In this document: piece by piece, positions 10,911 to 60,817 of the stretch | Layout: the number at the start of each line of letters is the position of its first letter | Numbering within the stretch: the first letter of the stretch is position 1 | NCBI RefSeq assembly: GCF_030818655.1 | Contig: NZ_JAUTAN010000001.1 | Coordinates: 558,001 to 622,000 of the forward strand | DNA length: 64,000 bases | Direction of reading: 5' to 3' | Source: Nocardioides zeae | GTDB lineage: Bacteria > Actinomycetota > Actinomycetes > Propionibacteriales > Nocardioidaceae | Translations under genes and position numbers: made by a program | Notes under the pieces: generated by a model | What the model was told of the DNA's origin: nothing | Databases searched by the model: none | Seen by the model: only the letters and a program-made list of their open reading frames with translations

Positions 10911-10956
10911 GACGTCATGCGAAGGGGCTGCCCGGCCGACCGGAGCGCATGACGTC
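10911..10956. repeat. 46-nt palindromic repeat, family A, copy 1
   Basis: GACGTCATGCG at the left end and CGCATGACGTC at the right end, 46 nt overall. Lies in the divergent gap between mrx and the AAA ATPase gene. Nearly identical to copy 2, 210 bp away. Confidence 0.85.
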
Positions 10957-11027
10957 CGGCGGGCACCCCGCACACGGCGTACGCCGCGCCGCAGGTCCGG
11001 GTGGACCGTCCGGCCGGGGTGCTGAGC

Positions 11028-11083
11028 AATGGTGCGGCTGAGGCAGGTCCGGGGCAGCGGACGACGCCCCGTCCGCACATTTC
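11028..11083. repeat. 56-nt palindromic repeat, family B, copy 1
   Basis: Starts AATGGTGCGGCTG and ends CCGCACATTTC; GTGCGG (11032-11037) pairs with CCGCAC (11073-11078). Lies between two family A copies. The 441-bp gap 10799-11239 holds no supportable gene, only repeats A1, B1, A2 and the TAGCCT promoter at 11228. Confidence 0.7.
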
Positions 11084-11120
11084 CGACCCACGTCGGATCC
11101 GGGCGCCGTCCCCCGTCGCG

Positions 11121-11166
11121 GACGTCATGCGCAGGGGCTGCCCGGGCGACCGGAGCGCATGACGTC
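11121..11166. repeat. 46-nt palindromic repeat, family A, copy 2
   Basis: Same 11-nt arms as copy 1, with 22 of 24 loop bases the same. Flanking CCCCCG on the left can pair with CGGGGG on the right, extending the stem past a short bulge. Confidence 0.85.
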
Positions 11167-11239
11167 CGGCGGGGGAGGCGAGCCGGTGCCCGGCGGAAAA
11201 CCCGGTGCCCGGCCGGTGACGACGCCCTAGCCTCGCCCG

Positions 11240-12562
11240 GTGCACTCCGAACCGCCCGATCCCCGCCCCTCGCACCCCCTCGCCGACCTCCTCGACGGCG
11301 AGCCCGCCCACGTGCGGGAGACCGTCGCCTTCCTCGGGCGCCTCCTCGGGGAGGCGGAGCACCGGCCCACCCCGCGCTCCTTCGTCGAGCAGCACCTCGG
11401 ACCCGACCCGGTCGCGGTGACCGTCGACCTCTCCTTCCTCGCCACCCCCTCGGTCGCCGCGGTGCTGGGCACGACCATGGACGCGCACCCCCACGACCTC
11501 GGACCCGGCGACGACACGCAGGACCCGGCCTGGCGCCGCCTCCGGCTCGACGGCAGCGAGCTGTCCGTGCCCGACAACGTGGGCGTCCACTTCCGGGCGG
11601 GCACGCTCGTCGACGTACCGGTCGTGGTGCGGCTCTTCGAGGGGGAGCTGTACGGCGGGTACCGGCGCCAGCTGACCGTCCACGCCCCGGCGGGTGGGCG
11701 CGAGGCCGCTGCCCGGGTGGTCGACGACCTGCGGACGCGGGCGGACGGCGAGGAGTCGGTGTTCCGCGGCCGGCTGCTGCGACCGGTGGTGACGACGGAG
11801 GGCCTGACCTTCGAGGTGCTGCCGCTGCCCGCCTCCTCGCGCGAGGACCTCGTGCTCGACGACGCGGTCTGGCGCGAGGTGGACCTCAACATCGCCGCCG
11901 TCACGACGCGGCGCGCCACGATGCGCGCCCTCGGTCTCGCCTCCCGGCGCGGCATCCTGCTGGCCGGCCCGCCCGGCACCGGCAAGAGCGCGCTCACCCG
12001 CCAGGTGGCCCACGAGCTGACGGGGGCGTTCACCACCGTCGTCGTCGACGCGCGGAGCGCCGACGACGCGCTCGAGGAGGTCTACGCGGAGTCGCGCCGC
12101 CTCGGCCCGCTGCTCGTGGTCCTCGAGGACCTGGACCTCTACGCCGGTCACCGGGGCTCGAGCCGGAACCCCGGCACCCTGGCGGACCTGCTCTCCGTCC
12201 TCGACGGCACGCTGCAGCTGGACGACGTCCTGACGGTCGCCACCACCAACGACCCCCGCTCCCTCGACGTCGCGGCCATCCGGTCGGCCCGCTTCGACGC
12301 GCTCGTCGAGATCGGCTACCCCGACCGCGCCGCGGCCACGCAGATCCTCCGCCGGTACGTCGCGAAGGTGCCCGGCGCGGAGCGCATCGACGCCGCGGCG
12401 GTCGTCGATGCGCTGCCCGCCGACGTGTCCGGGGCCGACCTGCGGGAGGTCGTGCGGCGCGCCGCCCTGCGCGACGGGGAGCAGCTGACGACGGCGAGCC
12501 TGCTCACCGCGGTGCGGGAGGGACGCTGGCGGGTGGCCGTCCCGGTCGGCGACTACCTCTGA
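11240..12562 (+). CDS. AAA-family ATPase with an actinobacterial N-terminal domain
   Basis: 440 residues. The C-terminal half is an AAA module: Walker A LLAGPPGTGKSALTR (about 239-253), Walker B LLVVLEDLDLY, sensor-1 TVATTNDPRSLD, an arginine-finger region SARFDALVEIGYPDR and a sensor-2/lid segment GADLREVVRRAALRDGE. The N-terminal 220 residues resemble the uncharacterised domain (DUF5925-type) found before this ATPase in actinobacteria; that name is from memory and less certain. Substrate unknown. The GTG has TAGCCT (11228-11233) exactly six bases upstream, so the transcript is probably leaderless. It sits between mrx and uvrD2. Confidence 0.8.
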   Translation: MHSEPPDPRPSHPLADLLDGEPAHVRETVAFLGRLLGEAEHRPTPRSFVEQHLGPDPVAVTVDLSFLATPSVAAVLGTTMDAHPHDLGPGDDTQDPAWRRLRLDGSELSVPDNVGVHFRAGTLVDVPVVVRLFEGELYGGYRRQLTVHAPAGGREAAARVVDDLRTRADGEESVFRGRLLRPVVTTEGLTFEVLPLPASSREDLVLDDAVWREVDLNIAAVTTRRATMRALGLASRRGILLAGPPGTGKSALTRQVAHELTGAFTTVVVDARSADDALEEVYAESRRLGPLLVVLEDLDLYAGHRGSSRNPGTLADLLSVLDGTLQLDDVLTVATTNDPRSLDVAAIRSARFDALVEIGYPDRAAATQILRRYVAKVPGAERIDAAAVVDALPADVSGADLREVVRRAALRDGEQLTTASLLTAVREGRWRVAVPVGDYL

Positions 12563-12593
12563 GCAGGAGGAGCGGGCACCGCGCACGCAGGAC

Positions 12594-12615
12594 TGTCGGC
12601 GTCGGCGTCTAAGGT
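12594..12615 (+). promoter_or_regulatory. PafBC-type DNA-damage promoter motif before uvrD2
   Basis: TGTCGGCG (12594-12601), eight bases, TAAGGT (12610-12615), the same architecture as the motif before adnA. The GGAGG ribosome-binding site lies at 12642-12646, leaving a leader of about 35 nt. Confidence 0.72.
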
Positions 12616-12657
12616 CGGCGACGCCCCGATCCCGTCACCTCCGGAGGACCACCCCGC

Positions 12658-14748
12658 ATGCCTGCCACGCCGTCGCCCGACGCGCTGCTCGCCGCGCTCG
12701 ACCCGGAGCAGCGGGCGGTCGCCGAGGCGTTGCGCGGGCCCGTGCGGGTGCTGGCCGGCGCGGGCACGGGCAAGACCCGCGCGATCACCCACCGGATCGC
12801 GTACGGCGTGGCGACGGGGGTCTACGCGCCGACCGAGGTGCTCGCCGTGACCTTCACGACGCGCGCGGCGGGGGAGATGCGCACGCGGCTGCGCGACCTC
12901 GGCGCCCCGGGCGTGCAGGCGCGCACGTTCCACTCGGCGGCGCTGCGGCAGCTGCGGTACTTCTGGCCCCGCGTCCACGGCACCGAGCTGCCGGAGCTGG
13001 TGCAGTCGAAGCTCGGCATCATCGGGCCGGCCGCGCGGCGGCTGCGGATCGGCACCGACGCGGCCCTGCTCCGCGACCTCGCCGGCGAGGTGGAGTGGGC
13101 CAAGGTCAGCAACGTCTCGCCGGAGACCTACGAGCGCATCGCCCCGGCGCGCGGCCGGTCGGTCAACGGGCTCGACGCCGCGTCGGTCGCCCGGCTGCTG
13201 GAGTCCTACGAGGAGACCAAGCGCGCCCAGGGCCGCATGGACATGGAGGACGTGCTGCTCTGGACGGCCGGGCTGCTGGCGGAGGACGAGCGGGTCGCGG
13301 CGCAGGTGCGCCGGCAGTACCGGTGGTTCGTCGTCGACGAGTTCCAGGACGTCTCGCCGCTGCAGCACGCGCTGCTCGAGCTGTGGCTCGGGGGCCGCGA
13401 CGAGGTGTGCGTGGTCGGCGACCCCGCGCAGACGATCTACAGCTTCGCGGGCGCCGACGCGTCCTACCTGCGCGACTTCCACCGCACTCGCAAGGACGTG
13501 ACGTCCGTCGAGCTGGTGCGCAACTACCGCTCGACGCCCCAGATCGTGGGCGCGGCCAACAGCCTGCTGTCGGGCACGTCGAGCGCCGGGGTGCGGCTGC
13601 GCGCGCAGCGGGAGGCCGGGCCCGAGATCAGCACGCGTCTCCTCCCCGACGAGGTCGCGGAGGCGGAGGCCGCCGCAGCCGAGGTGGTGCGCCTGCGCGA
13701 CGCGGGCACCCCGCTGGGGGAGATCGCGATCCTCTTCCGCATCAACGCCCAGTCGGAGGTCTTCGAGGAGGCCCTCGCGGCCCGCCAGGTGCCCTACGTC
13801 ATCCGCGGCGCCGCGCGCTTCTTCGACCGTCCCGAGGTCCGCCAGGCGGTCACCCTCCTGCGCGGCACCGCGCGCTCGGGCGCGGAGGACGGCCTCGTCG
13901 AGGGCGTCCGTGGCGCCCTCGCCAGCATGGGGTGGGCGCCGACGCCGCCGGAGGCCCGCGGCCAGACCCGCGACCGCTGGGAGTCGCTCCAGGCCCTCGT
14001 CGACCTCGCGGAGTCGGTCCGGGCCGCCGACGCGTCCACCACGCTCGCCGCGTTCGTCGAGGACCTCGAGCGCCGCGCCGCGGAGCAGCACGCGCCCGTG
14101 GCCGACGGGGTCACGCTGGCGACCCTCCACGCGGCGAAGGGTCTCGAGTGGGACGTCGTGCTCCTCTGCGGCATCCACGACGGCGCGCTCCCGATCACGT
14201 ACGCCGAGGGTCCGGCCGCCATCGAGGAGGAGCGCCGCCTGCTCTACGTGGGCATCACGCGCGCCCGCCGCGAGCTGCTGATCTCCTGGGCGAGCGCCCG
14301 ACAGCCGGGCGGGCGTGGGTCCCGCAAGCCGTCGCGGTTCCTCCGCCCCATCGCCCCGAGCGCGTTCGACGAGCAGGCTGGTCCCGCCGGCGGGGCGCGG
14401 AGCAAGAAGGCGTCCCGCAAGGCGGTCCACTGCCGCGAGTGCGGCAAGCCGCTCGACACCGCCGCCGAGAAGAAGATCGGGCGGTGCAGCGACTGCCCGT
14501 CGTCCTACGACGAGGAGATCTTCGAGCGGCTGCGCGACTGGCGCCGGCAGCGCGCTGCGGCGGAGAGCGTGCCGGCCTACGTGCTGTTCACCGACGCGTC
14601 CCTGCAGCTCGTGGCGGAATACCTGCCGCGCACCCCCGAGGCGCTCCTCAAGGTCAACGGGGTGGGGCGTTCCAAGCTCGAGAAGTACGGCGAGGACGTC
14701 CTCGCCGTGGTCGCGGGGGAGACCCCTCCCGGGCTGGTGGACGAATGA
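12658..14748 (+). CDS. uvrD2: ATP-dependent DNA helicase UvrD2
   Basis: 696-residue superfamily 1A helicase, 3'-5' unwinding in repair. Motifs: Walker A GAGTGKT (34-40), TFTTRAAGEM, DEFQDVSPLQ (near 227), GDPAQTIYSFAGAD, VRNYRSTPQIV, TLHAAKGLEWDVVLL and VGITRARREL. The UvrD2-specific tail is present: a tetracysteine module (Cys592, Cys595, Cys610, Cys613) then an HRDC domain (about 620-690, LLKVNGVGRSKLEKYG). In mycobacteria the Cys module lets the helicase work without the HRDC domain. The ATG has CCGGAGGACC upstream and a PafBC-type motif ahead. Orthologous position to Rv3198c. Confidence 0.94.
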   Translation: MPATPSPDALLAALDPEQRAVAEALRGPVRVLAGAGTGKTRAITHRIAYGVATGVYAPTEVLAVTFTTRAAGEMRTRLRDLGAPGVQARTFHSAALRQLRYFWPRVHGTELPELVQSKLGIIGPAARRLRIGTDAALLRDLAGEVEWAKVSNVSPETYERIAPARGRSVNGLDAASVARLLESYEETKRAQGRMDMEDVLLWTAGLLAEDERVAAQVRRQYRWFVVDEFQDVSPLQHALLELWLGGRDEVCVVGDPAQTIYSFAGADASYLRDFHRTRKDVTSVELVRNYRSTPQIVGAANSLLSGTSSAGVRLRAQREAGPEISTRLLPDEVAEAEAAAAEVVRLRDAGTPLGEIAILFRINAQSEVFEEALAARQVPYVIRGAARFFDRPEVRQAVTLLRGTARSGAEDGLVEGVRGALASMGWAPTPPEARGQTRDRWESLQALVDLAESVRAADASTTLAAFVEDLERRAAEQHAPVADGVTLATLHAAKGLEWDVVLLCGIHDGALPITYAEGPAAIEEERRLLYVGITRARRELLISWASARQPGGRGSRKPSRFLRPIAPSAFDEQAGPAGGARSKKASRKAVHCRECGKPLDTAAEKKIGRCSDCPSSYDEEIFERLRDWRRQRAAAESVPAYVLFTDASLQLVAEYLPRTPEALLKVNGVGRSKLEKYGEDVLAVVAGETPPGLVDE

Positions 14749-14764
14749 TCGTGAAATGAGTCAG

Positions 14765-14802
14765 AAAATGAATTGCCCATGACAGAAGCGGCGGGGTAAC
14801 GT
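14765..14802 (+). promoter_or_regulatory. whiB7 promoter with upstream AT-rich WhiB7 site
   Basis: AAAAT (14765-14769), three bases, TTGCCC (-35, 14773-14778), 18 bases, TAACGT (-10, 14797-14802). An AT-rich element three bases upstream of -35 is the known signature of WhiB7-activated promoters, including its own. This is the most A-rich spot in a very GC-rich neighbourhood. Confidence 0.8.
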
Positions 14803-14882
14803 CGCCCGCAGTCCTGATCGCACCGCGCATCCCGGCCCTGGCACGGCCCGCGCACGAGACGCAACCCGAGGAGGTGGCACCC

Positions 14883-15164
14883 ATGGAGATCTACACCAGC
14901 ACCACGTGGCAGCAGTCGAACGACGTTGCGCGCGTCCTCGGAGGCCACCGCGCCCCGGGTTCCCTCGGCGCCGTCGTCGCGTCCGCGGGTGACGTGCGTC
15001 TGCGTGCGGGCGACCGCGGCATCGCGACGATCGCGGCTGCGGCGAAGCCGATGGGCGCGGAGGCCCGTGCCTTCGGCGCGCCCGAGGCGTTCGACGCGCC
15101 CGCGGCGTTCGAGGCGTTCGACGCCCGCGCCACGCGGACCCACGCCTGGAGACCACCGGTCTGA
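14883..15164 (+). CDS. whiB7 leader peptide (upstream ORF), 93 aa
   Basis: Begins MEIYTSTTWQQSND behind a strong GAGGAGGT site (14868-14875). It lies wholly inside the long whiB7 leader and stops 22 bases before the attenuator hairpin. The C-terminal third is a low-complexity AF(D/G/E)A-type repeat (EAFDAPAAFEAFDA). It has no recognisable domain. Known whiB7/wblC leaders carry an upstream ORF whose stalled translation prevents termination; position, ribosome-binding site and terminator fit that role. Known leader ORFs I recall are shorter, so 93 codons is unusual. It could also encode a stable small protein. Confidence 0.7.
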   Translation: MEIYTSTTWQQSNDVARVLGGHRAPGSLGAVVASAGDVRLRAGDRGIATIAAAAKPMGAEARAFGAPEAFDAPAAFEAFDARATRTHAWRPPV

Positions 15165-15186
15165 GACATCTCAGTCGGCGCCTCCA

Positions 15187-15225
15187 GGCCACGGTCCCCC
15201 ACAGGGAACCGTGGCCTTTCTGTTT
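15187..15225 (+). terminator. whiB7 leader attenuator (intrinsic terminator)
   Basis: GGCCACGGT (15187-15195) pairs with ACCGTGGCC (15208-15216), continued inward by CCC/GGG across one bulged A, then a T-rich tract TTTCTGTTT (15217-15225). It lies between the upstream ORF and whiB7, 39 bases before the gene, as expected of a conditional terminator. Confidence 0.85.
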
Positions 15226-15263
15226 CCCGCCCACCCACGAAGGTCGACGAAGGAGGTGACGAC

Positions 15264-15578
15264 ATGACCGTCCACGAGCTGATGCCGCACCCGGACGTGG
15301 CGCTGACCGCGCTCCACGACGCGGCGGACCAGGTGGACCCGCGCTTGCTGCCGTGCCGCAACGGCGACGCCGAGCTCTGGTTCGCCGAGTCCCCGACCGA
15401 CGTCGAGGCTGCCAAGACGCTGTGCCAGGACTGCCCGGTGCGCGCGCTCTGCCTCGACGGCGCCCTCGAGCGCCGCGAGCCGTGGGGCGTCTGGGGAGGA
15501 GAGCTCTTCGCCCAGGGGGTGGTGATCCCCCGCAAGAGGCCCCGAGGACGGCCCCGGAAGAACCCGGTGGCCGCGTGA
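15264..15578 (+). CDS. whiB7: WhiB7 family transcriptional regulator
   Basis: 104-residue iron-sulfur activator of intrinsic resistance to translation-targeting antibiotics; it binds region 4 of the primary sigma factor. Cluster ligands are Cys31, Cys54, Cys57 and Cys63 (CQDCPVRALC). EPWGVWGG (72-79) is the Trp/Gly turn, and the C-terminal AT-hook RGRPR (94-98) distinguishes WhiB7 from other Wbl proteins. AAGGAGGTGAC precedes the ATG. Position next to uvrD2 matches Rv3197A. Regulation: own AT-rich promoter plus attenuation in a roughly 450-nt leader. Confidence 0.95.
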   Translation: MTVHELMPHPDVALTALHDAADQVDPRLLPCRNGDAELWFAESPTDVEAAKTLCQDCPVRALCLDGALERREPWGVWGGELFAQGVVIPRKRPRGRPRKNPVAA

Positions 15579-15656
15579 GCCCGCCAGCACGACCCGTCCA
15601 GCAGCACCCCGCACCACCGACCGCACGACACGACCCGATGTCCCAGGAGGACCCGA

Positions 15657-15727
15657 TGGAGCTCATCCGACCGCTGATCGATCGGCCCCGCGCCGTGGCC
15701 ACCGCCTTCGGAGCAGTGACCGCGTGA
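15657..15727 (+). CDS. Small ORF, 23 aa, downstream of whiB7
   Basis: MELIRPLIDRPRAVATAFGA plus three residues. A well-placed AGGAGG (15645-15650) precedes the ATG, and the TGA overlaps the GTG of the next ORF, suggesting translational coupling. No family recognised. It could be a leader peptide controlling the next ORF or only a ribosome-loading device. The ribosome-binding site and overlap are seen; the function is unknown. Confidence 0.45.
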
Positions 15728-15942
15728 CCACCCCGACCCCCACTTCCGTCACCACCAGCCAGAACAGGAACGCCGAGATGCAACTTCTCAACGAAGAATT
15801 GGCCCGCGCACAGTCAGCCGAGCTGCTCCGCGAGGCGGAGCAGCGCCACCAGGTGCAGCGCCTGCTCGCCGCGCGCCGTCTCAGCCGTCGGGCCGAGGCC
15901 GCCGCGCAGCAGGTGCGCCTGAAGCTCGCGCGCTCGCTCTGA
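15724..15942 (+). CDS. Small charged helical protein, 72 aa
   Basis: 72 residues: a Thr/Ser-rich start (MTTPTPTSVTTSQNRN), then a continuous amphipathic helix rich in Glu, Arg, Gln and Leu (LLNEELARAQSAELLREAEQ, later RRLSRRAEAAAQQVRL). Coiled-coil-like, no Cys, no membrane segment. The GTG start overlaps the stop of the 23-residue ORF, and the pair follows whiB7 by about 80 bases, so read-through from whiB7 would make it antibiotic-inducible (inference). No family assigned. Confidence 0.6.
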   Translation: MTTPTPTSVTTSQNRNAEMQLLNEELARAQSAELLREAEQRHQVQRLLAARRLSRRAEAAAQQVRLKLARSL

Positions 15943-16008
15943 CGCGTCGGCCCCGGACCGAGGGGGCCGCGCGCCGGAGCTCGAATCCCACGACGGACCC
16001 GTCGGGCA

Positions 16009-16938
16009 TCAGCCCGGCGGGCCCGTCCCGTCCTGCCAGGAGCAGCCGCACCACGGGTGCCGCGGCCACGCCCGCACCGCGTCGGCGTCGCCGGGGAACA
16101 CCTCGACCGTGGTGGACCAGGTGAGCGGGACACCGCCGTCGACGTACCGCACGACGTCCCGGGCCGCGACCGCCGCCCCGAGCGCGAGGCCGACCGGGTC
16201 CACCGGCGGCGGCAGCACGCCCGGCGGCGACCCCGTCGACTGGGCGAGCACCACGGGGTGCTGGGGGTCCTCCTCCCGGTGCGCCGCGTCGAGGCAGCGG
16301 AGGCAGGCGGTCGCGCCCACCGCCACGAACGGCCCGACCCGCACCCGGTCGGGCAGGACGGCGAGCCAGAGGTGGTCGCGCCCCTCCCGCACGAGCGTGT
16401 CGGACGCGGCGCGGTCGGGCTCGCCGACCGTGGCCACCACGGTCGGGATGCCGTCCGCCGTCGCGACCGCGTCCGCCTCCTCCGTCGTGCACGTCAGCAT
16501 CGCCCGCCGCAGGAGGTCGACGAGCGGACCTGCGTGCGCCGCTCCACGCACCGCGACACCGTGCCCGCGCCGTGCCGCGGCGCGGGCCGCGCCCCCGCCC
16601 GGATCGGTCGCGAGGAGGGCAGCCACACCGGCGGCCCCGTCGGCGACGACGCGGTCGGCCGCCCGGGCGGCCGCCAGCGCGCTGGTCGCGTCGACCACGA
16701 GGTCCCGCCGTCGCAGCCGCTCGTCGGCCAGCCGGACCCGTGACGACCAGGACGCCACCGGCCCGAGCACCTCCTCCGGGTCGGTCCCGCTGCGCCGGGC
16801 GGTGAGCAGGCGCCGTACGTCGTCCGCGTCCGGCACCGTCGTCGCGGACGCGCCGGGGAACCCCACGTGCAGGTGCCCGTCGGTGCGGCGCGCGACGTGC
16901 GCGCCGGGCCGCAGCAGCATCGGTCGCGAGGGGTCCAT
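16009..16938 (-). CDS. ThiF/E1-like protein related to TOMM cyclodehydratase partner domains
   Basis: 309 residues. The mid-to-C-terminal part reads VGPFVAVGATACLRCLDAAH, then DPQHPVVLAQ, a helix GLALGAAVAARDVVRY and a final HPWCGCSW. The CLRC...CGC pairs are the paired-cysteine zinc site of E1-like proteins seen in azole-peptide cyclodehydratases. The glycine-rich nucleotide loop of true E1 enzymes is not apparent, so adenylation is doubtful. The same protein occurs near uvrD2/whiB7 in M. tuberculosis (Rv3196). No RiPP precursor or YcaO partner is visible. The ATG at 16938 is favoured by CAGGGT seven bases upstream; a longer frame upstream is unlikely. Confidence 0.7.
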   Translation of the reverse strand: MDPSRPMLLRPGAHVARRTDGHLHVGFPGASATTVPDADDVRRLLTARRSGTDPEEVLGPVASWSSRVRLADERLRRRDLVVDATSALAAARAADRVVADGAAGVAALLATDPGGGAARAAARRGHGVAVRGAAHAGPLVDLLRRAMLTCTTEEADAVATADGIPTVVATVGEPDRAASDTLVREGRDHLWLAVLPDRVRVGPFVAVGATACLRCLDAAHREEDPQHPVVLAQSTGSPPGVLPPPVDPVGLALGAAVAARDVVRYVDGGVPLTWSTTVEVFPGDADAVRAWPRHPWCGCSWQDGTGPPG

Positions 16939-17049
16939 GCGCGGCACCCTGGCACGATCCGGGGGCCCGCGTCGGCGCTCGTCCACAGGTCCGGGCCCGC
17001 CGGTGTGGCGTGAGCCGGGGTCGTCGGTGGCCGTCGCTAGCCTGCGTCC

Positions 17050-17856: not shown

Positions 17857-18013
17857 CGTCCCGGGACGAGCGAGACCCCCGGTGCCCGCGCCACCGGCCT
17901 TCCCCTTGCCTGTGGCACGAGCGCCCGGGGGCCTCGTCGACCGCAACGCTAGGGGGTGCGGGGGCCCGGGTCAACGTCGCGTCCACGGGAGAGCCCACGG
18001 TCTTCTCCACCGC

Positions 18014-18054
18014 TGTGGATGAACCTGTGGACGACGTGTGGAACGGTGTGTGGA
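18014..18054 (+). promoter_or_regulatory. Array of four TGTGGA hexamers at 11-12 bp spacing
   Basis: TGTGGA starts at 18014, 18026, 18037 and 18049, all on the same strand and about one helical turn apart. The first two (CTGTGGATG, CTGTGGACG) are close to DnaA boxes read in reverse (TGTGGAYAA). The array lies 40 bases upstream of the PHP-domain gene. Confidence 0.5.
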
Positions 18055-18094
18055 GATCCGTCAGGATCGGTGGACGAGCTGGGGAGGGACGAGC

Positions 18095-28602: not shown

Positions 28603-28648
28603 GACGTCATGCGCCGCGGTGGCCCCGGCGACCGAACCGCATGACGTC
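28603..28648. repeat. 46-nt palindromic repeat, family A, copy 3
   Basis: GACGTCATGCG / CGCATGACGTC arms, 46 nt. It lies 46 bases after repeat B2 and 69 bases before the start codon of the next gene. Confidence 0.85.
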
Positions 28649-28717: not shown

Positions 28718-29818
28718 ATGCTCGACGGCCACGCCCTCCTCGCCCGTTCCCGCGTCGTACGCTCCGCGGCCTGCAACGCCTGGGCCGTGTCGTGGCTCGG
28801 CCCCGGGGTCGAGCGGCCCCGACCGCACCCGTCCGAGGTCGTCCACGACGCGCCCCACGCGCAGCTGCGCCGCTTCACCTCGTCGACCCCGACGACGGGG
28901 CGGCCCGTGCTCCTCGTGCCGCCGCTGGCCGTGCCCGCGACGTGCTGGGACCTCCGACCGGGGCAGAGCCTGGCGACGTACCTGGCGGAGGGGGACGGGG
29001 AGCAGGACCGCGCGGCGCGGCCCACGTACGTCGTCGACTACGGCGACGTCACGTTCGCAGACCGCCAGCTCGGGTTCGAGGACTTCGCGTGCCGCATCGT
29101 CCCCGACGCCGTATGGCGCGTGTCGGCCCTCCACGGCGGGGGACCGGTGCACCTCGTGGGCTGGTCGCTCGGCGGCACGATCTCGTTGCTGGCCGGGGCG
29201 GCCCAGCCCGAGCTGCCGATCGCGTCGATCACCGCGCTGGGCACCCCGATCGACTACGGCCTCAACGCGTCGGCCCGTCCGCTGCGGTGGCTCGACGAGC
29301 GGCTCGGCTCGCGGGTGATGACCGCCCCGACGGCGTTGCTCGGCGGCGTGCCGGCGCCCCTGGTGCAGCTGGTCTACCGCGGGCTCGCGCCCACGCGGGA
29401 GCTCAAGAAGCCCTGGTTCCTGCTGTCGAACCTCGCCGACACCGAGACCCTGGCGCGCAGCGAGGCGATCGACCAGTTCATGGCGGCGATGCCGGGCTAC
29501 CCGGGGCGCCTCTACCACCAGATGCACACCCGGCTGATCGTGCGGCGCGAGCTCGCGACCGGCACGGTCCACCTCGGTCGCGGCGTCGTCGTCGAGCTCG
29601 ACCGCCTGGTCGCCCCGGTGACGCTCGTCGGCTCCACCACCGACGCCGTCGCGTCGGCCGCGGCGGTCGAGGCCGGCACGCGGTCGTTCCCGTCGGCGGC
29701 GACGATGCGGTACGTCGAGGTGAGCGGCTTCAGCCACCTCGGCCTGGTCGCGGGCAGCGCCGCACGGCACCACACGTGGCCGGCCGTCGTCGCGCAGCTC
29801 GAGGCCGCCGACGGCTGA
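28718..29818 (+). CDS. Alpha/beta hydrolase related to PHA synthases
   Basis: 366 residues with PhaC-type organisation: RPVLLVPPLAVPATCWDLRP (oxyanion region), YVVDYGDVTFADRQLGFEDF, the nucleophile elbow GWSLGG and a C-terminal GFSHLGL with the likely catalytic His. True PHA synthases use Cys in the elbow; here it is Ser, so a hydrolase or acyltransferase is more likely. Start ATG 28718 is preferred because CATAAT (28705-28710) lies seven bases upstream with TTGTTA as possible -35; the longer frame begins inside repeat A3. Confidence 0.8.
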   Translation: MLDGHALLARSRVVRSAACNAWAVSWLGPGVERPRPHPSEVVHDAPHAQLRRFTSSTPTTGRPVLLVPPLAVPATCWDLRPGQSLATYLAEGDGEQDRAARPTYVVDYGDVTFADRQLGFEDFACRIVPDAVWRVSALHGGGPVHLVGWSLGGTISLLAGAAQPELPIASITALGTPIDYGLNASARPLRWLDERLGSRVMTAPTALLGGVPAPLVQLVYRGLAPTRELKKPWFLLSNLADTETLARSEAIDQFMAAMPGYPGRLYHQMHTRLIVRRELATGTVHLGRGVVVELDRLVAPVTLVGSTTDAVASAAAVEAGTRSFPSAATMRYVEVSGFSHLGLVAGSAARHHTWPAVVAQLEAADG

Positions 29819-42646: not shown

Positions 42647-42895
42647 GTGAGCGACCCCTTCGACGTCCCCGTCCGCGACGGCTCCATCCGTCTCGGACAG
42701 TTCCTCAAGCTGGCGAACCTGGTGGAGTCCGGCGCGCAGGCGAAGCCCGTCATCGCTGAGGGCCGGGTGCTCGTCAACGGCGAGGTTGACACGCGGCGCG
42801 GTCGCCAGCTGGTCGTCGGCGACGTCGTGACGCTCGACGGTCAGAGCGCCCGTGCAGTCGACGCGGAGGGCTTCGACGACGGCCTTCCCTGGTAG
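42647..42895 (+). CDS. S4-domain RNA-binding protein (YbcJ-like)
   Basis: 82 residues, a single S4 fold: IRLGQFLKLANLVESGAQAK, then VNGEVDTRRGRQLVVGDVV. Such proteins bind structured RNA or ribosomal subunits. The GTG lies 22 bases after the DUF445 stop, with GATGAT six bases upstream as a possible leaderless -10. Confidence 0.85.
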   Translation: MSDPFDVPVRDGSIRLGQFLKLANLVESGAQAKPVIAEGRVLVNGEVDTRRGRQLVVGDVVTLDGQSARAVDAEGFDDGLPW

Positions 42896-42905: not shown

Positions 42906-42951
42906 AACGTCATGCGCCCCGCAGGCTCGAGCCTGCGGGGCGCATGACGTT
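42906..42951. repeat. 46-nt perfect palindrome, family A, copy 4 (variant)
   Basis: Every base pairs: AACGTCATGCG and CGCATGACGTT ends, centre CTCGAG. The outer A:T replaces the G:C of the other copies, a compensatory change. It sits between convergent genes (S4 protein and FKBP) and may also terminate. Confidence 0.85.
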
Positions 42952-53356: not shown

Positions 53357-53397
53357 CGAGCGGCAGGCGGCGCTGGTCGACCCCGACCGCGCCCCGC

Positions 53398-54002: not shown

Positions 54003-54006
54003 GGGG

Positions 54007-55716
54007 TCAGATCCCGAACGTGGCGCGGGGGTACGCCGCGTCGACGTCCGTGATGATGTTGACGAGGTAGGGCACGCCCGCAGCGAAGGCCCGGTCGAGC
54101 GCGGGGCCGATCTGCCGCGGGTCGGTCACGACCTCGCCCGCGCCCCCGAGGGCCTTGACGACCTCGTGGTAGGCCGTGCGGGGGGCCAGGTCGGCGGCCA
54201 CGTCGTAGCCGTAGAGCATCTGCATCGGGCCCTTCTCCAGGCCCCACGCCGAGTTGTTGCCCATGACCATGACGACGGGCAGGTCGTGGCGCACGAGGGT
54301 GTCGACGTCCATCAGTGAGAAGCCCGCGGCACCGTCACCGAGCAGGAGCACCACCTGCGCCGACGGGCGGGCGATGCGTGCGGCGATGGCGGCGCCGAGG
54401 CCGGCGCCGAGGCAGCCGTACGGTCCGGGGTCGAGCCAGCCGCCCGGGCGCTTGGGCTCGACGTACTTGCCGGCGAACGACACGAAGTCGCCACCGTCGC
54501 CGATGACGACGGCGTCGTCGGCGAGGCGCGGCACGAGCTCGCCGTAGATGCGGGCCGGGTGGACGGGGTCCGCCTCGGCCGCGAGGAGCTGCGCGTCGCG
54601 CTCCGCCGCGGCGCCGACCTTCGCCTGCAGGTCGCTCACCCACGCCGCGTGGTCGGGCTTGCGGGGCTGGGCCTGGAGCGCGGCGAGGACGCCGTCGAGG
54701 GCGAGGGTGAGGTCGCCGTACGCCGAGGCGGCGAGCTCCGCGTGCCCCGAGACCTGGGCGGCGGAGTCGGCGACGTGGACGACGCGGGCGGGGGTGGCGC
54801 CGTCCTTGCCGCCGAACACGCCGTACCCGAGCCGGAAGTCCAGGGGCGTGCCCACGACGACGACCAGGTCGGCGCCCCCGAAAGCAGCGCTCCGGGCCTT
54901 GGTGACGAGCAGCGGGTGGCCGCCGGGGACGACGCCCCGACCCATGCCGTTGGTGATGGCGGGCAGGCCGGCCTCCTCGACGAGGCGGAGGGCCGCCTCC
55001 TCGGCCCCGTCGGCCCACACGTCCGTGCCGAGCACGAGCACCGGACGGCTCGCCTCCGCGAGCAGGCGGCCGATCGTGCGGAGCGCGTCGGGGTCGGGCT
55101 GCTCGGGGGCGGGCCGCGCGCCCGTCGGGAGCGGGCCCGACGCCGAGTTGAAGAACTCGTCCATCGGCACGTCGACGAAGACCGGGCCGCGGTGGGACGC
55201 CCCCGCGGTGGCGAACGCGGCGTCCATGCCGCCCAGCACGTCGGAGGCGAGGTGGAGCGTGCGCGCGTCCTTCGCCACCGGAGCGACGATCGGCGGGTGG
55301 TCGAGCTCCTGCAGGCTGCCGGAGCCCCAGCGGTTGGCCGGGGCGCGGCCGCCGACGACGACCATGGGGGAACCGGCGAAGGTCGCCTGCGCGATCGCGC
55401 TGATGCCGTTGGTCACGCCGGGACCGGCGGTGAGCACGGCGAGGCCGGGTCGCCGCGTCAGCTTGCCCGTCGCCTCTGCGGCGAACGCCGCCGTCTGCTC
55501 GTGGCGCACGTCGACGAGCCGCATCGGCGGGTCCGCCTTCACGGCGCCGTCGTACATCGGGAACACGTGGGCGCCGGACAGCGTGAACATGGTCTCGACG
55601 CCGTGCGCGCGAGCCGCCGCGACCGCGAGCGTGCCCGCGTGCCCCTCGATCTCGGAACCGGTCGGGGACGTGGAGCCGACGGCGGAGGCGTCGGACGTGG
55701 GGTCGGTCGTCGTCAT
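54007..55716 (-). CDS. Acetolactate synthase-like thiamine-pyrophosphate enzyme
   Basis: 569 residues with three POX/AHAS domains. The catalytic Glu is in DVRHEQTAAFAAEATG (near 55); the middle domain has RPVLVLGTDVW; the TPP-binding motif is LLGDGAAGFSLMD to GNNSAWGLEKGP. It resembles IlvG/oxalyl-CoA decarboxylase-type enzymes rather than the biosynthetic IlvB, since no ilvN regulatory subunit gene is adjacent. Reaction uncertain. ATG 55716 has TAACGT seven bases upstream. Confidence 0.82.
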   Translation of the reverse strand: MTTTDPTSDASAVGSTSPTGSEIEGHAGTLAVAAARAHGVETMFTLSGAHVFPMYDGAVKADPPMRLVDVRHEQTAAFAAEATGKLTRRPGLAVLTAGPGVTNGISAIAQATFAGSPMVVVGGRAPANRWGSGSLQELDHPPIVAPVAKDARTLHLASDVLGGMDAAFATAGASHRGPVFVDVPMDEFFNSASGPLPTGARPAPEQPDPDALRTIGRLLAEASRPVLVLGTDVWADGAEEAALRLVEEAGLPAITNGMGRGVVPGGHPLLVTKARSAAFGGADLVVVVGTPLDFRLGYGVFGGKDGATPARVVHVADSAAQVSGHAELAASAYGDLTLALDGVLAALQAQPRKPDHAAWVSDLQAKVGAAAERDAQLLAAEADPVHPARIYGELVPRLADDAVVIGDGGDFVSFAGKYVEPKRPGGWLDPGPYGCLGAGLGAAIAARIARPSAQVVLLLGDGAAGFSLMDVDTLVRHDLPVVMVMGNNSAWGLEKGPMQMLYGYDVAADLAPRTAYHEVVKALGGAGEVVTDPRQIGPALDRAFAAGVPYLVNIITDVDAAYPRATFGI

Positions 55717-55788
55717 GTGACCCACGTTACTCACCGGTCACCTCGAGGGGGAGACCCCGCGCCGCGCGAGCTCTCCCCGGGGGTGGGG

Positions 55789-56631
55789 TCAGGCGCGGGT
55801 GCGGAGCCCCGGGTTGGTCTGCCGCAGCGCGTCGACGAGCACCAGCAGCAGGTCGGAGCGCACCTGGGGCGGCTGCGGCGCCAGCGCGAGCTGCAGGTGC
55901 AGGGCGCGGAGGAAGGCCTCCGGGTTGCCGGTGACCAGGTAGGGGTCCTGCCGCTCGCTCGGGTACGCCGTGGCGCGGGCAGCGATGCGCCGCACCCACG
56001 GCTCGACGACGGTGAGCGGCAGCACGTTGCGGCGCAGCACCCGCATCGTCGCCTCCGCGATGCGGTCCGGCTCTCCGGAGACCAGGAGGCGGGTGCCCTC
56101 GGCGAGCACGCGGTCGGCGAGCACGTCCAGCAGGACCGTCAGCTCGGGGGCGGCGAGGTGGGGCGACTCGGCGAGCGTGCCGATCGCATCGGCGCCGTGC
56201 GCGACGGCGTGGGCCCAGCCCTTGCCCTCCACGAAGCCGCGGTCGTCGCGCTCGCGGAGGTACCACGACACGAGCCGGTCGCCCCAGTCGAGCACCTGCG
56301 TGCTCCGCACGAGGGCGCGGCGGTTGTCGCGGGCCACGCACTCGCCCAGCAGGAGCGCGGAGAAGCTGCGGCGGAAGACCGAGTCGGTCCCGACCTCGCC
56401 GAGGCCCACCAGGAGGCCGGTCGCGATGCCGTCGCCGAGGCCCGCCAGCAGCTCGTCGTAGACCCCGCGGTCGATCCAGGTCGCGAGCATCGGGTACGCC
56501 GTGTGGTCCCGCTCGGCGGGGTCGCTCGACCCCAGCATCCGCGTGAGCTCCGCCGTCAGGTCACCGAGCGGGCGGTCGGTCGGAACCCCGAGGCCGGAGT
56601 CGATCACCTGCCTCCAGTACGAGCCGACCAT
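55789..56631 (-). CDS. DUF2785 family protein
   Basis: 280 residues, all-helical, with the family signature RGFVEGKGWAHAVAHGAD around residue 140. No enzyme motif or membrane segment. CAGGAT lies seven bases before ATG 56631, which is preferred to the ATG nine bases upstream. Function unknown. Confidence 0.75.
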   Translation of the reverse strand: MVGSYWRQVIDSGLGVPTDRPLGDLTAELTRMLGSSDPAERDHTAYPMLATWIDRGVYDELLAGLGDGIATGLLVGLGEVGTDSVFRRSFSALLLGECVARDNRRALVRSTQVLDWGDRLVSWYLRERDDRGFVEGKGWAHAVAHGADAIGTLAESPHLAAPELTVLLDVLADRVLAEGTRLLVSGEPDRIAEATMRVLRRNVLPLTVVEPWVRRIAARATAYPSERQDPYLVTGNPEAFLRALHLQLALAPQPPQVRSDLLLVLVDALRQTNPGLRTRA

Positions 56632-56743
56632 GGGGCCCATCCTGCCAGCCGCGGACGGTCGGACGTTCGGGTGGTCGGCCCCTGCGCGACCTTCCGGACG
56701 GCCCTCCGCGAAGACCCAGGTCAGCCCGGCCTAGGCTGGTGCC

Positions 56744-58226
56744 GTGGCGTGGATGAGCGACCTGGTGCGGGACCACACCGACCTCGACGGCGACGATCTC
56801 GTCTGGCTCCAGCTGCTGATGGCGGACTGGCAGATCGTCGCCGACCTGTCGTTCGCGGACCTCGTCATGTGGCTGCCGGACCGCGACGGACGCGGGTTCT
56901 GGGCCGTCGCCCAGATGCGGCCGACGACGGGGCCCACCGCCCTCGTGGACGACGTCGTCGGCGACTTCGTCGAGGCCGGGCAGCGTCCGCTGCTCGACGG
57001 GGCGCTGCGCCACCGCAAGCTCCTCCGCGAGGGCGACCCGGAGTGGCGCGACGACGTGCCGGTCCGCGTCGAGAGCATCCCGGTGCAGCGCGGTGGGCGG
57101 GTCATCGGCGTCATCGCCCGCAGCACCAACCTCCTCGGGGTGCGCACCCCCTCCCGTCTCGAGCTCTCCTACCTCGAGACGGCCTCGGACCTCACCCGGA
57201 TGATCGCCGGTGGGCAGTTCCCGGTCGCGGGCCAGCGGAGCGCCAACGCCGACTCGCCGCGGGTGGGCGACGGCTTCGTCCGGGTCGAGGCCGACGGTCG
57301 GGTGCGCTACGCCAGCCCCAACGCCCTCTCGGTGTTCCGGCGGCTCGGTCACCGCGGCGACCTCGTCGGCGTGAACCTGGCCGACCTGACCCGCGCCCTC
57401 GTGCCCCCGCGGCGGCGGCCCGACGAGGAGACGCTGTCGGCCGTGCTGGGCGGCCGCGCCCACCGCGACGCCGAGGTCGCGACGGACGCGGTCGCAATCA
57501 TCCTGCGCACGATCCCGCTGCGTCCCTACGGCGACCACGTCGGCGCGCTGATCCTGCTCCGCGACGTCACCGACCTGCGCCGCCGCGACCGCGAGCTGGT
57601 CACCAAGGACGCCACCATCCGGGAGATCCACCACCGGGTGAAGAACAACCTGCAGACCGTCGCGGCGCTGCTCCGGCTGCAGGCGCGGCGGATCGACGAG
57701 CCCGCGGCGCGGGCGGCGCTCGGGGAGGCCGTGCGCCGTGTCGGGTCGATCGCGATCGTGCACGAGACGCTGAGCCAGGTCGTCGAGGAGAACGTCGACT
57801 TCGACCAGGTCGCGGAGCGGCTGCTGCGGATGGTCATCGACGTCAGCGCGGCGGGGGAGCGGATCACGGTGCGGGCCACGGGTGCCTTCGGCACCATCCC
57901 GTCGGAGGTCGCGACCCCCTTGGCGATGGTCGTCACCGAGCTCCTGCAGAACGCGGTCGAGCACGGCTTCGGGGCGCTGGACGACCCCGAGGCGTCGGGG
58001 AGCGGTCGTCGCGGACGCGCGGCGGGTGGACGGCCGGCTGCGGGTCGTCGTCGAGGACGACGGCCGCGGGCTTCCGGAGGGGTTCGACCTCGACGGGGGC
58101 AGCGGTCTCGGGCTCACCATCGTGCGGACGCTCGTCGAGTCCGAGCTCGGGGGCCGGCTGGAGCACGGTCGCCGTGAGGACGGACCGGGCTCGCGCTTCG
58201 TCGTCGACGTCCCGGTGGACCAGTGA
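56744..58226 (+). pseudogene. pdtaS: PdtaS-like sensor histidine kinase (GAF-PAS-HisKA_2-HATPase), +1 frameshift at G4 run 57997-58000
   Basis: About 493 residues when the frame is corrected. The N-terminal GAF-like part (about 1-150) and PAS domain (about 175-290) precede the H-box IREIHHRVKNNLQTVAALLR (His of HHR phosphorylated) and the ATPase N-box TELLQNAVEHGF. The first frame is lost after DDPEASG; one G fewer in the GGGG run restores AVVADARRVDGRLRVVVEDD, then GRGLPEGF, GGSGLGLTIVRTLV and the end at 58226. PdtaS signals to the RNA-binding antiterminator PdtaR. Conserved beside whiB1 (Rv3220c/Rv3219). Loss would be surprising, so a sequencing error is likely. TAGGCT six bases before the GTG. 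Confidence 0.87.
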
Positions 58227-58285
58227 GCCCCCCGGTGTCGCCCCGGGAGGGGGCACGACGCCGGAGGGCTCGGGAGTGCGGTGGG

Positions 58286-58537
58286 TCAGGCGGTGCGGAC
58301 GCGCGCGCGGGCCGTGCGGCGCTTGAGGGCGCGACGCTCGTCCTCGCTGAGACCGCCCCAGACCCCGTGGTCCTGGCCGGCCTCGAGGGCCCACGCGAGG
58401 CACTGCTCACGCACGTCGCAGCGGCGGCAGACCTGCTTGGCCTCCTCGATCTGGAGGATGGCCGGGCCGGTGTTGCCGATCGGGAAGAAGAGCTCGGGGT
58501 CCTCGTCGAGACAGGCCGAGCGGTGACGCCAATCCAT
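58286..58537 (-). CDS. whiB1: WhiB1 transcriptional regulator
   Basis: 83 residues. Iron-sulfur ligands Cys9, Cys37, Cys40 and Cys46 have the same spacing as M. tuberculosis WhiB1; WALEAGQDHGVWGG and SEDERRALKRR complete the match. WhiB1 is an essential nitric-oxide-sensitive regulator that binds the primary sigma factor. No AT-hook. The leader is long (about 100 bases) with its own promoter region upstream. Confidence 0.95.
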   Translation of the reverse strand: MDWRHRSACLDEDPELFFPIGNTGPAILQIEEAKQVCRRCDVREQCLAWALEAGQDHGVWGGLSEDERRALKRRTARARVRTA

Positions 58538-58634
58538 GATCGGGCGGTCCTTTGCAATCGGAAGTGATGAGCGGGCCCGTGGGTCTGCTCGGAGCTGGAG
58601 ACGCAGTCGGGCAGCGCGCCGACCGGCGCCCGAA

Positions 58635-58658
58635 CACGTATGACCTCAACACTGACAA
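58635..58658 (-). promoter_or_regulatory. whiB1 promoter; near-match to the PafBC pattern
   Basis: On the minus strand TTGTCAGTG (58658-58650), nine bases, TACGTG (58640-58635). The first element is a perfect TTGTCRGTG; the gap is nine instead of eight and the last base of the -10 is G. Alternative: an ordinary weak promoter. Confidence 0.45.
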
Positions 58659-58693
58659 GAAGTGGACTGCCGCACAAGCCCTTTCGGGGGTCT

Positions 58694-58723
58694 GGTGTGT
58701 CACAGGTGTGACATCGGTGTGAC
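58694..58723. promoter_or_regulatory. Triple GGTGTG repeat with TGTCAC-N4-GTGACA palindrome
   Basis: GGTGTG begins at 58694, 58705 and 58716 (exact 11-bp period), and TGTCACAGGTGTGACA (58698-58713) is a 6-bp inverted repeat. It lies in the divergent gap between whiB1 and the membrane protein gene. In mycobacteria whiB1 is CRP-controlled, but this is not the TGTGA-N6-TCACA form. Confidence 0.5.
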
Positions 58724-58759
58724 TTCTCCGTGTCCGGGCCGGGGCCGTAGCCTGGCGCC

Positions 58760-59203
58760 GTGACGTCCCCCGACACCGTCGACCCGACCGCCGCGCCCTC
58801 GCCCGGCCCCGTTCCCGCCGCGCTCCGCGTGGGCATCGCGGTCGTCGGCCTGCAGGCGCTCGTGGTGGTCGGCTACGCGCTCACCGAGCTGGTGTACGGC
58901 GCGGTCGAGCGCTCCGGCACCGCGGTAGCGGTCGCGGTGTTCCTCGGGGCGTACGGCGTGGGCATCGGGTGGGCCGGCTGGCTCGTGCTGCAGTGCCGCT
59001 CGTCCGCGCGGTCGCCCCTCGTGCTGGCGCAGCTGCTCCACCTCGGGCTGGCGTGGAACATGCGGGACGAGCCGACGACCCTCGCCGCCGTCGCGCTGGC
59101 CGGCTCGGCCGTGCTCGCCCTGGTCGCGCTCTTCTGGCGCAGCAGCCACCGGTGGCTGCTCGACGGGGACCCCGACGCCGCGGGGCCGAGCCAGCGGGTC
59201 TGA
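58760..59203 (+). CDS. Four-helix integral membrane protein, unknown function
   Basis: 147 residues with four hydrophobic helices (LRVGIAVVGLQALVVVGYAL, VAVAVFLGAYGVGIGWAGWL, LVLAQLLHLGLAWNM, LAGSAVLALVALFW). The GTG has TAGCCT (58748-58753) six bases upstream. Divergent from whiB1 and possibly co-regulated. No family name. Confidence 0.75.
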   Translation: MTSPDTVDPTAAPSPGPVPAALRVGIAVVGLQALVVVGYALTELVYGAVERSGTAVAVAVFLGAYGVGIGWAGWLVLQCRSSARSPLVLAQLLHLGLAWNMRDEPTTLAAVALAGSAVLALVALFWRSSHRWLLDGDPDAAGPSQRV

Positions 59204-59235
59204 CCCGGCGGGGTCCGACCGGATCCGGACGCCGG

Positions 59236-60186
59236 TCAGTCCTCGGCCTGCAGGTTGGTGCGCAGCTGGTCGAGGGTGCGGGCCAGCAGGCGCGACACGT
59301 GCATCTGCGAGACACCGATCTCGGCGGCGATCTGCGACTGCGTCATGTTCTTGAAGAAGCGCAGCAGCAGGATCTTCTTCTCGCGCGCCGGCAGCTGGTC
59401 GAGCAACGGCTTGAGCGACTCCCGGATCTCGACGTGCTCGAGGCCCTCGTCGTCCACGCCGATGGTGTCGAGCATCGTCATCGTGGAGTCGTCGCTGTTG
59501 TCGGTCGCGTCGAGCGAGAGCGTCGAGTAGGCGTTGCTGGACTCGATGCCCTCGACGATCTCCTCGCTGCTGCAGCCGATCGCCTCGGCCAGCTCGCTGA
59601 CGGTGGGGGAGCGACCGAGCCGCTGGGTGAGCTCCGCGGTCGTGGCGCTGATCTGCATCCGCAGCTCCTGCAACCGGCGGGGCACGCGGATGGCCCAGCC
59701 CTTGTCGCGGAAGTAGCGCTTGATCTCGCCGATGATGGTCGGCGTCGCGTAGGTCGAGAACTCGACGCCACGCTCGGTGTCGAAGCGGTCGATCGACTTG
59801 AGCAGGCCGATGGTGCCGACCTGCACGAGGTCCTCGAACGGCTCGCCGCGGTTGCGGAACCGGCGGGCGCAGTGCTCGACGAGCGGCAGGTGCAGGTGCA
59901 CGAGGTTGTCGCGCGCCTCCTGGCGGGTGGCCTCGCCCGACAGCTCGTGCCGCAGGTCGACGAAGAGCGCCGCGCTGCGTGCCCGGGTCTGCTCGATGCC
60001 GATGGCCCGTGCGTCCGGCTCGGGCCCGGTGACGGGCTCCGGGGCGGCGCCGCCGTCGGCCTCGGTCATCGAGGCGACGACCTCGGCGACGAGCGCCGCG
60101 TCCTCGGCGGACGGCTCCTGCGGGGCGTCCGGGCCGGGTTCGGTCTCGCTGGGCTGGTCCGGCTGACCGGGAGGGGTGGGAGGCAT
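59236..60186 (-). CDS. sigF: SigF/SigB-type general stress sigma factor
   Basis: 316 residues. An acidic, disordered 60-residue N-terminus is followed by region 2 (EDLVQVGTIGLLKSIDRFD, FSTYATPTIIGEIKRYFRDK), region 3 (RVPRRLQELRMQIS) and region 4 (LPAREKKILLLRFFKNMTQS, IAAEIGVSQMHVSRLL). This is the SigB/F/G subgroup controlled by an anti-sigma kinase, which is the gene just upstream; one base separates the two frames (TGA-G-ATG). Confidence 0.92.
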   Translation of the reverse strand: MPPTPPGQPDQPSETEPGPDAPQEPSAEDAALVAEVVASMTEADGGAAPEPVTGPEPDARAIGIEQTRARSAALFVDLRHELSGEATRQEARDNLVHLHLPLVEHCARRFRNRGEPFEDLVQVGTIGLLKSIDRFDTERGVEFSTYATPTIIGEIKRYFRDKGWAIRVPRRLQELRMQISATTAELTQRLGRSPTVSELAEAIGCSSEEIVEGIESSNAYSTLSLDATDNSDDSTMTMLDTIGVDDEGLEHVEIRESLKPLLDQLPAREKKILLLRFFKNMTQSQIAAEIGVSQMHVSRLLARTLDQLRTNLQAED

Positions 60187-60187
60187 C

Positions 60188-60598
60188 TCAGAGGTCGGTG
60201 CCGGAGACGATCGTGAGGCGCACCGTGAACGAGTCCGCCGTGGTGACCTCCTCGGCCGAGGTGGCGATCGTGGTGAGGACCTGCCAGGCGAAGCTCTCGT
60301 AGTTGGGCTCGGGAGCGGTCGACGTGGTGACGCTGACCTCGACGGTCAGCGCACGGTCACCGAGGTGGAACGCGCAGCGCAGGTCGCTCTCCGGGTCGGC
60401 CTCGGGGAGCACGAGGGCGGTGGCCTCGCCGACCGCCATCCGCAGGTCCTCGATGTCGTCGATCGTGAAGTCGAGGCGCGCGGCCAGGCCGGCCGCCGTG
60501 GTGCGCAGCACCGACACGAACGCTCCGTCGGCCGGCAGCCGCAGCTCGACGTCCGCACGGCCCGTGGGGAAGGTGGGCGCCGCACCGGGCACGGTCAT
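60188..60598 (-). CDS. rsbW: RsbW/UsfX-like anti-sigma factor (HATPase)
   Basis: 136 residues, GHKL ATPase fold: RTTAAGLAARLDFTIDDIED and LRMAVGEATALVL (Mg-binding box with Glu in place of the usual Asn), then a degenerate C-terminus without an obvious G-box. It should hold SigF inactive until titrated by an anti-anti-sigma factor; no such gene is in the window. TAGAGT and CGGAAGGACG lie upstream of the ATG. Confidence 0.88.
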   Translation of the reverse strand: MTVPGAAPTFPTGRADVELRLPADGAFVSVLRTTAAGLAARLDFTIDDIEDLRMAVGEATALVLPEADPESDLRCAFHLGDRALTVEVSVTTSTAPEPNYESFAWQVLTTIATSAEEVTTADSFTVRLTIVSGTDL

Positions 60599-60697
60599 GA
60601 GGAGCGTCCTTCCGAAGGGCGACGGGTCGCGGCCGACTCTAGGACATCGCGCCCGCCGCCGACGGGGCAGCCCGCCGCGCGCGCCCCCACCTCTGCG

Positions 60698-60743
60698 GAC
60701 GTCATGCGGAGCGGTGGCCCCGACCGCCGGGACGCATGACGTC
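60698..60743. repeat. 46-nt palindromic repeat, family A, copy 5
   Basis: GACGTCATGCG / CGCATGACGTC arms; the loop shares GCGGTGGCCCCG with copy 3 except for one base at its start. In the tandem gap rsbW-serA (60599-60839), which holds no gene. Confidence 0.85.
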
Positions 60744-60771
60744 CCAGGAGGACCCGGCCCCCTCCCTCGCG

Positions 60772-60817
60772 GACGTCATGCGGAGCGCGGGCCGGGGCCA
60801 CCGTTCCGCATGACGTC
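60772..60817. repeat. 46-nt palindromic repeat, family A, copy 6
   Basis: Same arms. The loop read in reverse complement contains CGGTGGCCCCGG, so this copy is inverted relative to copy 5, 74 bp away. Flanking CCCTC and GAGGG extend the stem. Confidence 0.85.

Follow-up and report, generated by a model that had tools for sequence, protein, structure and literature searches.

The window analysed here, 64,000 nucleotides (nt) of a Nocardioides genome (assembly GCF_030818655.1, contig NZ_JAUTAN010000001.1, positions 558,001 to 622,000; the genome, referred to as G000, is 4.38 Mb in one contig), holds six copies of a palindrome in its intergenic gaps. What are these palindromes, and what could have placed them there? 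Our answer, to which we assign a probability of about 0.7, is that they form a family (family A) that is the dispersed non-coding half of a two-part element, that the coding half is the gene for a predicted nuclease of an AbiEi/DUF559 type, and that the palindromes spread by means of that gene. We observed linkage of gene and palindrome, matched pairs around the gene, dispersal of the palindrome, constraint on its arms and spacing, and co-variation of the two partners.

The palindrome in the window, the genome and the genus

Six copies of 46 nt had been reported in a preliminary description of the window, and all of them are present:

Family A copy 1, 10911 to 10956: 46 nt with exact arms; in the divergent gap that separates called genes 10547-10798 (-) and 11240-12562 (+)
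Family A copy 2, 11121 to 11166: exact arms; in the same gap as copy 1, 210 nt away, with similar flanks
Family A copy 3, 28603 to 28648: exact arms; tandem gap, 5' of gene 28718-29818 (+)
Family A copy 4, 42906 to 42951: perfect 46-nt palindrome whose outer pair is A:T; in a convergent gap, 10 nt past the end of 42647-42895 (+)
Family A copy 5, 60698 to 60743: exact arms; tandem (-) gap flanked by 60188-60598 (-) and 60840-62048 (-)
Family A copy 6, 60772 to 60817: exact arms; 74 nt from copy 5

Five copies have the exact form GACGTCATGCG-N24-CGCATGACGTC (at 10911, 11121, 28603, 60698 and 60772), which did not appear in 100 shuffles. Copy 4, with arms AACGTCATGCG...CGCATGACGTT and a fold of -46.1 kcal/mol, is indeed the perfect palindrome with an A:T outer pair that had been described, and the predicted hairpins of the six copies range from -25 to -46 kcal/mol. 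The inverted loop attributed to copy 6 also holds up, as its interior, reverse-complemented, resembles that of copy 5, and divergent, tandem and convergent gaps are all represented, as had been said. In an Rfam search of the window, one tRNA alone reached the gathering score and there was no RNA-family match for the palindromes.

The preliminary description allowed that the family might be limited to these copies, or that its spacing might vary elsewhere, and neither turned out to be so. The genome contains 61 exact copies (none in the reversed control) and 79 with up to three mismatches (control 0), and the N. zeae genome G353 contains 104 at the latter threshold (control 0). When gaps of 9-39 were allowed between exact arms, 61 of the 62 pairs in G000 had a gap of 24. 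Likewise, in 280,736 bases of G000 DNA, made up of stretches picked because they hold copies, the gap was 24 in all 65 copies with up to two mismatches, and gaps of 15-23 and 25-34 yielded no copy with up to three. The 58 located copies number 9, 10, 4, 5, 6, 8, 10 and 6 per eighth of the chromosome. Single arms occur 156 times in the genome, and a role for them as uptake-like signals is unsupported, with 122 of the 156 belonging to the 61 exact pairs.

A scan of named species genomes returned 118 stretches, 106 of them titled Nocardioides. The N. zeae copies among those listed are 46 nt long, and the other Nocardioides loci that were read have copies of 44 to 46 nt, except for one of 42 nt and one overlapping match that is longer. 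Of the 12 stretches under other titles, 11 depart from these lengths. Exact arms were found in 8 of 58 genomes (G000 included), all of them Nocardioides. A covariance model of family A (R1), built from 56 copies, matched 112 of 147 Nocardioides genomes in a search that scored at most 42 candidates per genome; with a higher candidate limit, between 57 and 69 strand matches were obtained in each of three Nocardioides genomes.

Across the genus, each half of the palindrome reads RACGTCATRCG, followed by 3-4 free bases, a near-invariant G and then a core. The G occupies column 16 of our alignment A1 in 56 of 56 rows, and column 31 is its pairing partner in 55 of these. The core is common to copies within a species and differs between species: it varies little in N. 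kribbensis (4 of 7 copies have GTGGATGCGCATCCAC and the remaining three deviate by one or two bases), varies more in G000 (CGGTGGCC..GGCCACCG), and reads GGGGAA..TTCCCC in G065 and GGACGTCC in G167. Between G000 and N. zeae, 25 orthologous copies differ at 3 of 550 arm positions (0.5%), an underestimate, since exact arms were the criterion for retrieving the N. zeae loci. They differ at 57 of 150 spacer positions, 94 of 450 core positions and 250 of 754 positions (33%) in the 20-nt flanks; had the arms changed as fast as the flanks, hardly any exact 22-base arm pair would survive. Furthermore, variation at the R positions is independent between the two arms of a copy. This independence, together with arms that are far less divergent than their flanks, is the behaviour of a two-fold DNA site, and the pattern is as would be expected for half-sites of a DNA-binding protein. 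With regard to an RNA-only reading, an informal reckoning from the core pair counts did not show G:U pairs to be in excess.

A nuclease gene between matched palindromes

In three species, a gene for a protein of about 300 amino acids lies between family A palindromes that are about 1.1-1.2 kb apart. The N-terminal half of this protein is AbiEi-like, with a winged helix and a nucleotidyltransferase-like fold, and the C-terminal half is predicted to fold as a DUF559/Vsr-like PD-(D/E)XK nuclease domain; an E-x-D-G motif and a downstream H are conserved in the protein alignments. A search of 118 Nocardioides genomes found a homologue at E 1e-20 or better in 69 of them. A strong group (E <1e-45) accounts for 60 places in 52 genomes and the remainder are weak paralogues. 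We examined the loci of 50 of the 60 strong places (30 obtained via the search and 20 by place) and of 20 weak ones.

Palindromes with the family A motif stand on both sides of the gene at 43 of the 50 strong loci, on one side at 6 and on neither side at 1. The same both-sided arrangement was found for 0 of 24 window genes, 1 of 109 genes when the window and the other G000 loci were combined, and 3 of 343 at the named loci, where the control loci, the window excepted, had themselves been picked for holding copies. It was found at 0 of 20 weak paralogues and, when the arms were shuffled, at 0 of 50 loci in each of 20 runs. A test for matched pairs that is free of any motif was positive at 30 of 50 strong loci, 11 of 20 weak loci and 0 of 452 control genes (2 of 452 with looser lengths), and many of the 20 strong and 9 weak loci that fail the strict pair carry a one-sided or less perfect palindrome. 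The usual layout of the module is palindrome, 93-205 bp to the aligned start (44 of 48 cases), gene, stop, palindrome, with a median of 10.5 nt from stop to palindrome (40 cases). A conserved site beside both gene ends is compatible with the bounds of a mobile unit. Based on shared neighbours, the 50 strong loci form five groups (3, 16, 3, 10 and 5 loci) and 13 singletons, and therefore represent at least 18 neighbourhoods.

Protein and palindrome also vary together. Over 34 loci, distances between proteins correlated with distances between cores (r 0.43, 0 of 5000 permutations) and between arms (r 0.34, 1 of 5000), although shared ancestry alone can yield such a correlation. Two genomes hold two strong paralogues each, with different palindromes. 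The palindrome at L300 in G092 resembles that at L297 in G030 (88% protein identity) rather than that of its genome-mate L293 (57%), and the palindrome at L283 in G021 resembles that at L287 in G137 (73%) rather than that at L291 (59%); in these two genomes, palindrome type tracks protein clade and not host genome. Family A hits occur in 51 of 52 genomes with the gene (median 13.5) as against 36 of 66 without it (median 1), in a comparison that counts up to 42 matches per genome over both strands and includes related, non-independent genomes.

Other palindrome families and probable loss of the family A gene

The weak paralogues are accompanied by palindromes quite unlike family A, with left and right alike at 11 of 20 loci. 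A survey of the actinomycete class found a homologue at E 1e-15 or better in 63 of 197 genomes, and a matched palindrome pair was present at 11 of the 27 loci fetched from other genera (the pair at L342 being weak, and some loci being cut by contig ends). Three further families were distinguished in G000 and its relatives:

Family C module, L306 (G000:C1:3460670-3461861): G000 paralogue gene 3460809-3461654 between family C palindromes
Family D module, L331:2990-4346 (G000:C1:3006489-3007845): 63-nt palindromes around a nuclease-like reading frame
Degenerate family B palindrome, window 11026 to 11083: between family A copies 1 and 2 (A-B-A), the right half recognised by pattern and the left half read from the sequence
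Other family B sites: L154:2770, L156:2958, L161:3142, L162:3083 and L165:2845

Family C is a 47-nt palindrome, GGTCGTGGTG...CACCACGACC, which G000 matches 42 times on the forward and 41 times on the reverse strand (control 0). Family B, GAAMTGKGMSG...CKSCMCAKTTC, is 57 nt long in 8 of the 9 elements found and often lies in between family A pairs that are about 180-270 nt apart. The family D palindrome, TCCCTGACGTT...AACGTCAGGGA, has one solo element, at L169:2676.

The strong protein was not found in G000 itself, where the sole match at E 1e-20 is the family C gene, with 33% identity. N. zeae carries the strong gene between family A palindromes, and the syntenic place in G000 holds a different nuclease-type open reading frame between the family D palindromes, which start right behind a 35-nt remnant of a family A element. 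This reading frame has no Pfam match and contains an E-Y-D-G...H stretch, a motif that suggests kinship to the nucleases. It seems that one module has replaced another at this place, in an order of events that we infer. Probably, the family A gene was lost from G000 and its palindromes were left behind; that their arms remain sharp may reflect a recent loss or some other use, for example termination behind convergent genes.

Genomic placement and turnover

Based on gene calls from an in-house script, 61 of the 65 copies in the fetched G000 loci lie outside called genes (35 in convergent, 20 in tandem and 6 in divergent gaps) and the remaining 4 within them. In these loci, a copy is present in 24 of 31 convergent gaps versus 17 of 116 other gaps (Fisher p 6e-11), and many copies lie 10-40 nt after a stop codon. 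Hairpin terminators without a U-tract have been proposed for actinobacteria, and the palindromes could be bidirectional transcription terminators spread by local duplication, with their sequence identity being incidental. The strong convergent bias and the distance to the stop codon are what this would predict, as are the stability of the window hairpins and the palindrome about 10 nt past the stop of the module gene. Nevertheless, we think it unlikely: pairing suffices for termination, yet exact arms are found in 61 of the 79 copies that have at most three mismatches, and the R positions change independently in the two arms of a copy. The constant gap of 24, the successive double copies, the copies in divergent gaps and the matched pairs around one gene family also count against it. 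Termination may be a side role of the palindromes.

Copies are gained and lost between close species, judging from aligned gaps. The window pair 60698/60772 is a single copy in the syntenic N. zeae gap, and another locus has one copy in G000 and two in N. zeae. Within the fetched loci, 37 of 65 G000 copies are without an N. zeae counterpart having both flanks, some of the 37 being cut by locus ends. When sites of distant species were compared, none of the pairs had both neighbours in common and five had one; a reading of the sites as ancient, fixed landmarks is therefore rejected. No target-site duplication was visible by eye in the N. zeae alignments, where the gaps also have other differences. 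As to a short conserved head outside the stem and inverted paired copies, as in REP families, visual inspection of the flanks showed a G/C-rich continuation alone; pairs of copies are common, but a full palindrome is without orientation.

Some copies are closely arrayed. In N. zeae, family A forms tandem arrays (G353:C1:95602-96255 and L028), with five copies recurring every 152 nt exactly and three every 268 nt exactly. The genome publication on N. dokdonensis FR1436 describes ten putative CRISPR (clustered regularly interspaced short palindromic repeat) repeats and no cas genes (PMC5526307), and arrays of family-A-like palindromes might be the source of such calls. Neighbouring copies less than 130 nt apart have spacings of 51, 62-63, 73-76, 97 and 105 nt, approximating whole helical turns (of six periods tried, 10.5 bp gave a phase length R of 0.80 and 11 bp one of 0.87; n=15 from G000 and related genomes, several of them tandem or orthologous and hence non-independent).

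Such clustering, as if the face of the DNA mattered, raises the question of whether a conserved host DNA-binding protein, with a function in chromosome organisation or global regulation, has its sites in the palindromes, with the nuclease gene as a passenger that tolerates such positions or targets them. Arms that are nearly unchanged between species, and that are kept in G000 in the absence of the family A gene, would fit this. However, the positions are not common to distant species, the core differs by species, and the other nuclease paralogues own separate palindromes, which indicates that the nuclease is the partner. A host protein is, in our estimation, a distinctly unlikely explanation.

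Comparison with known systems

The system resembles the repetitive extragenic palindromes (REPs) and their REP-associated tyrosine transposases (RAYTs). RAYT genes are described as lying between two REPs and co-varying with them, and RAYT homologues as absent from major lineages other than gammaproteobacteria (Nunvar et al. 2010, PMC2817692). In common with REP/RAYT, family A shows co-varying palindrome and protein, mosaic arrays, a site beside the stop codon and a gene that is usually present in one or a few copies. Dispersed extragenic palindromes in gaps and a gene bracketed by two of them, here at 43 of 50 loci though absent from G000, are further likenesses. Could family A then be a classical REP/RAYT family, or miniature inverted-repeat transposable elements (MITEs) derived from an insertion sequence? 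The extragenic palindromes, the mosaic pairs with a second palindrome family and the flanked gene would suit either. However, the search for a RAYT-type transposase that had been proposed in the preliminary description was negative, with the Y1 transposase family PF01797 in 0 of 39 genomes (G000 included) as against 5 of 14 control genomes, and the flanked genes that were scanned match no transposase family. Membership of REP/RAYT is therefore rejected, and this origin is very improbable. The enzyme of family A combines an AbiEi-like half with a predicted DUF559/Vsr-like nuclease and is not a Y1 HUH transposase; its hosts are actinobacteria, and its palindrome measures 46 nt, with constant arms enclosing a variable core. 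With an unrelated enzyme and no RAYT found, the system works like REP/RAYT but is not a member of it. Of the earlier proposal of a REP/MITE-like unit or a dimeric-protein site, the REP-like dispersed family and the two-fold site both stand in outline, and the partner gene found is of the AbiEi/DUF559 type in place of a RAYT.

Vsr-like homing endonucleases such as I-Bth0305I, a class known as EDxHD, share the predicted C-terminal fold and the conserved E-x-D-G and downstream H. A homing enzyme in the strict sense splits its own site. In contrast, the putative site of the family A nuclease is intact on both sides of the gene, the gene is free-standing among its neighbours, no intron or intein having been noticed, and the nuclease is fused to an AbiEi-like half. 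That half is shared with the AbiE type IV toxin-antitoxin systems, in which AbiEi is the antitoxin and which differ in that family A has an additional nuclease domain and dispersed palindromes, and no constant toxin-candidate neighbour; indeed no neighbour of any kind is common to the 50 strong loci (AbiEii itself was not searched for). Similarity to PvuRts1I-like modification-dependent endonucleases is weak: the nuclease core scored 22.6 bits against their profile, below the cut-off of 27, the best of the weak matches in a sequence search of solved structures was PvuRts1I (E 0.07), and the partner domain is different.

Proposed mechanism and wider meaning

If the palindromes and the nuclease are indeed two halves of one element, the AbiEi half would bind the palindrome half-sites as a dimer or tetramer, and the nuclease half would nick or cut at or near the palindromes. 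Repair or gene conversion could then copy palindromes into tolerated gaps, mostly behind convergent genes, and the whole module might occasionally be copied likewise. Going further, the balance tips slightly towards a broader proposal, namely that the AbiEi-DUF559 nucleases of Actinomycetes are a large superfamily of palindrome-bounded selfish elements and an independent counterpart of REP/RAYT. Each lineage would carry, spread and co-evolve with its own palindromes, with several families per genome (A, B, C and D), replacement at the same locus, and palindromes that outlive the loss of their nuclease. Among the titles listed in a limited literature search, none concerned such a palindrome/nuclease system, and we do not claim that it is absent from print.

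As a nuclease partner has been identified, there is now a testable mechanism for a repeat family of GC-rich actinobacteria. The findings also suggest that REP-like systems have arisen more than once, with unrelated enzymes, and offer a possible function for DUF559/AbiEi-like proteins that annotation has left nameless. Furthermore, the changing core between constant arms may reveal how a DNA-binding protein and dozens of dispersed sites change jointly.

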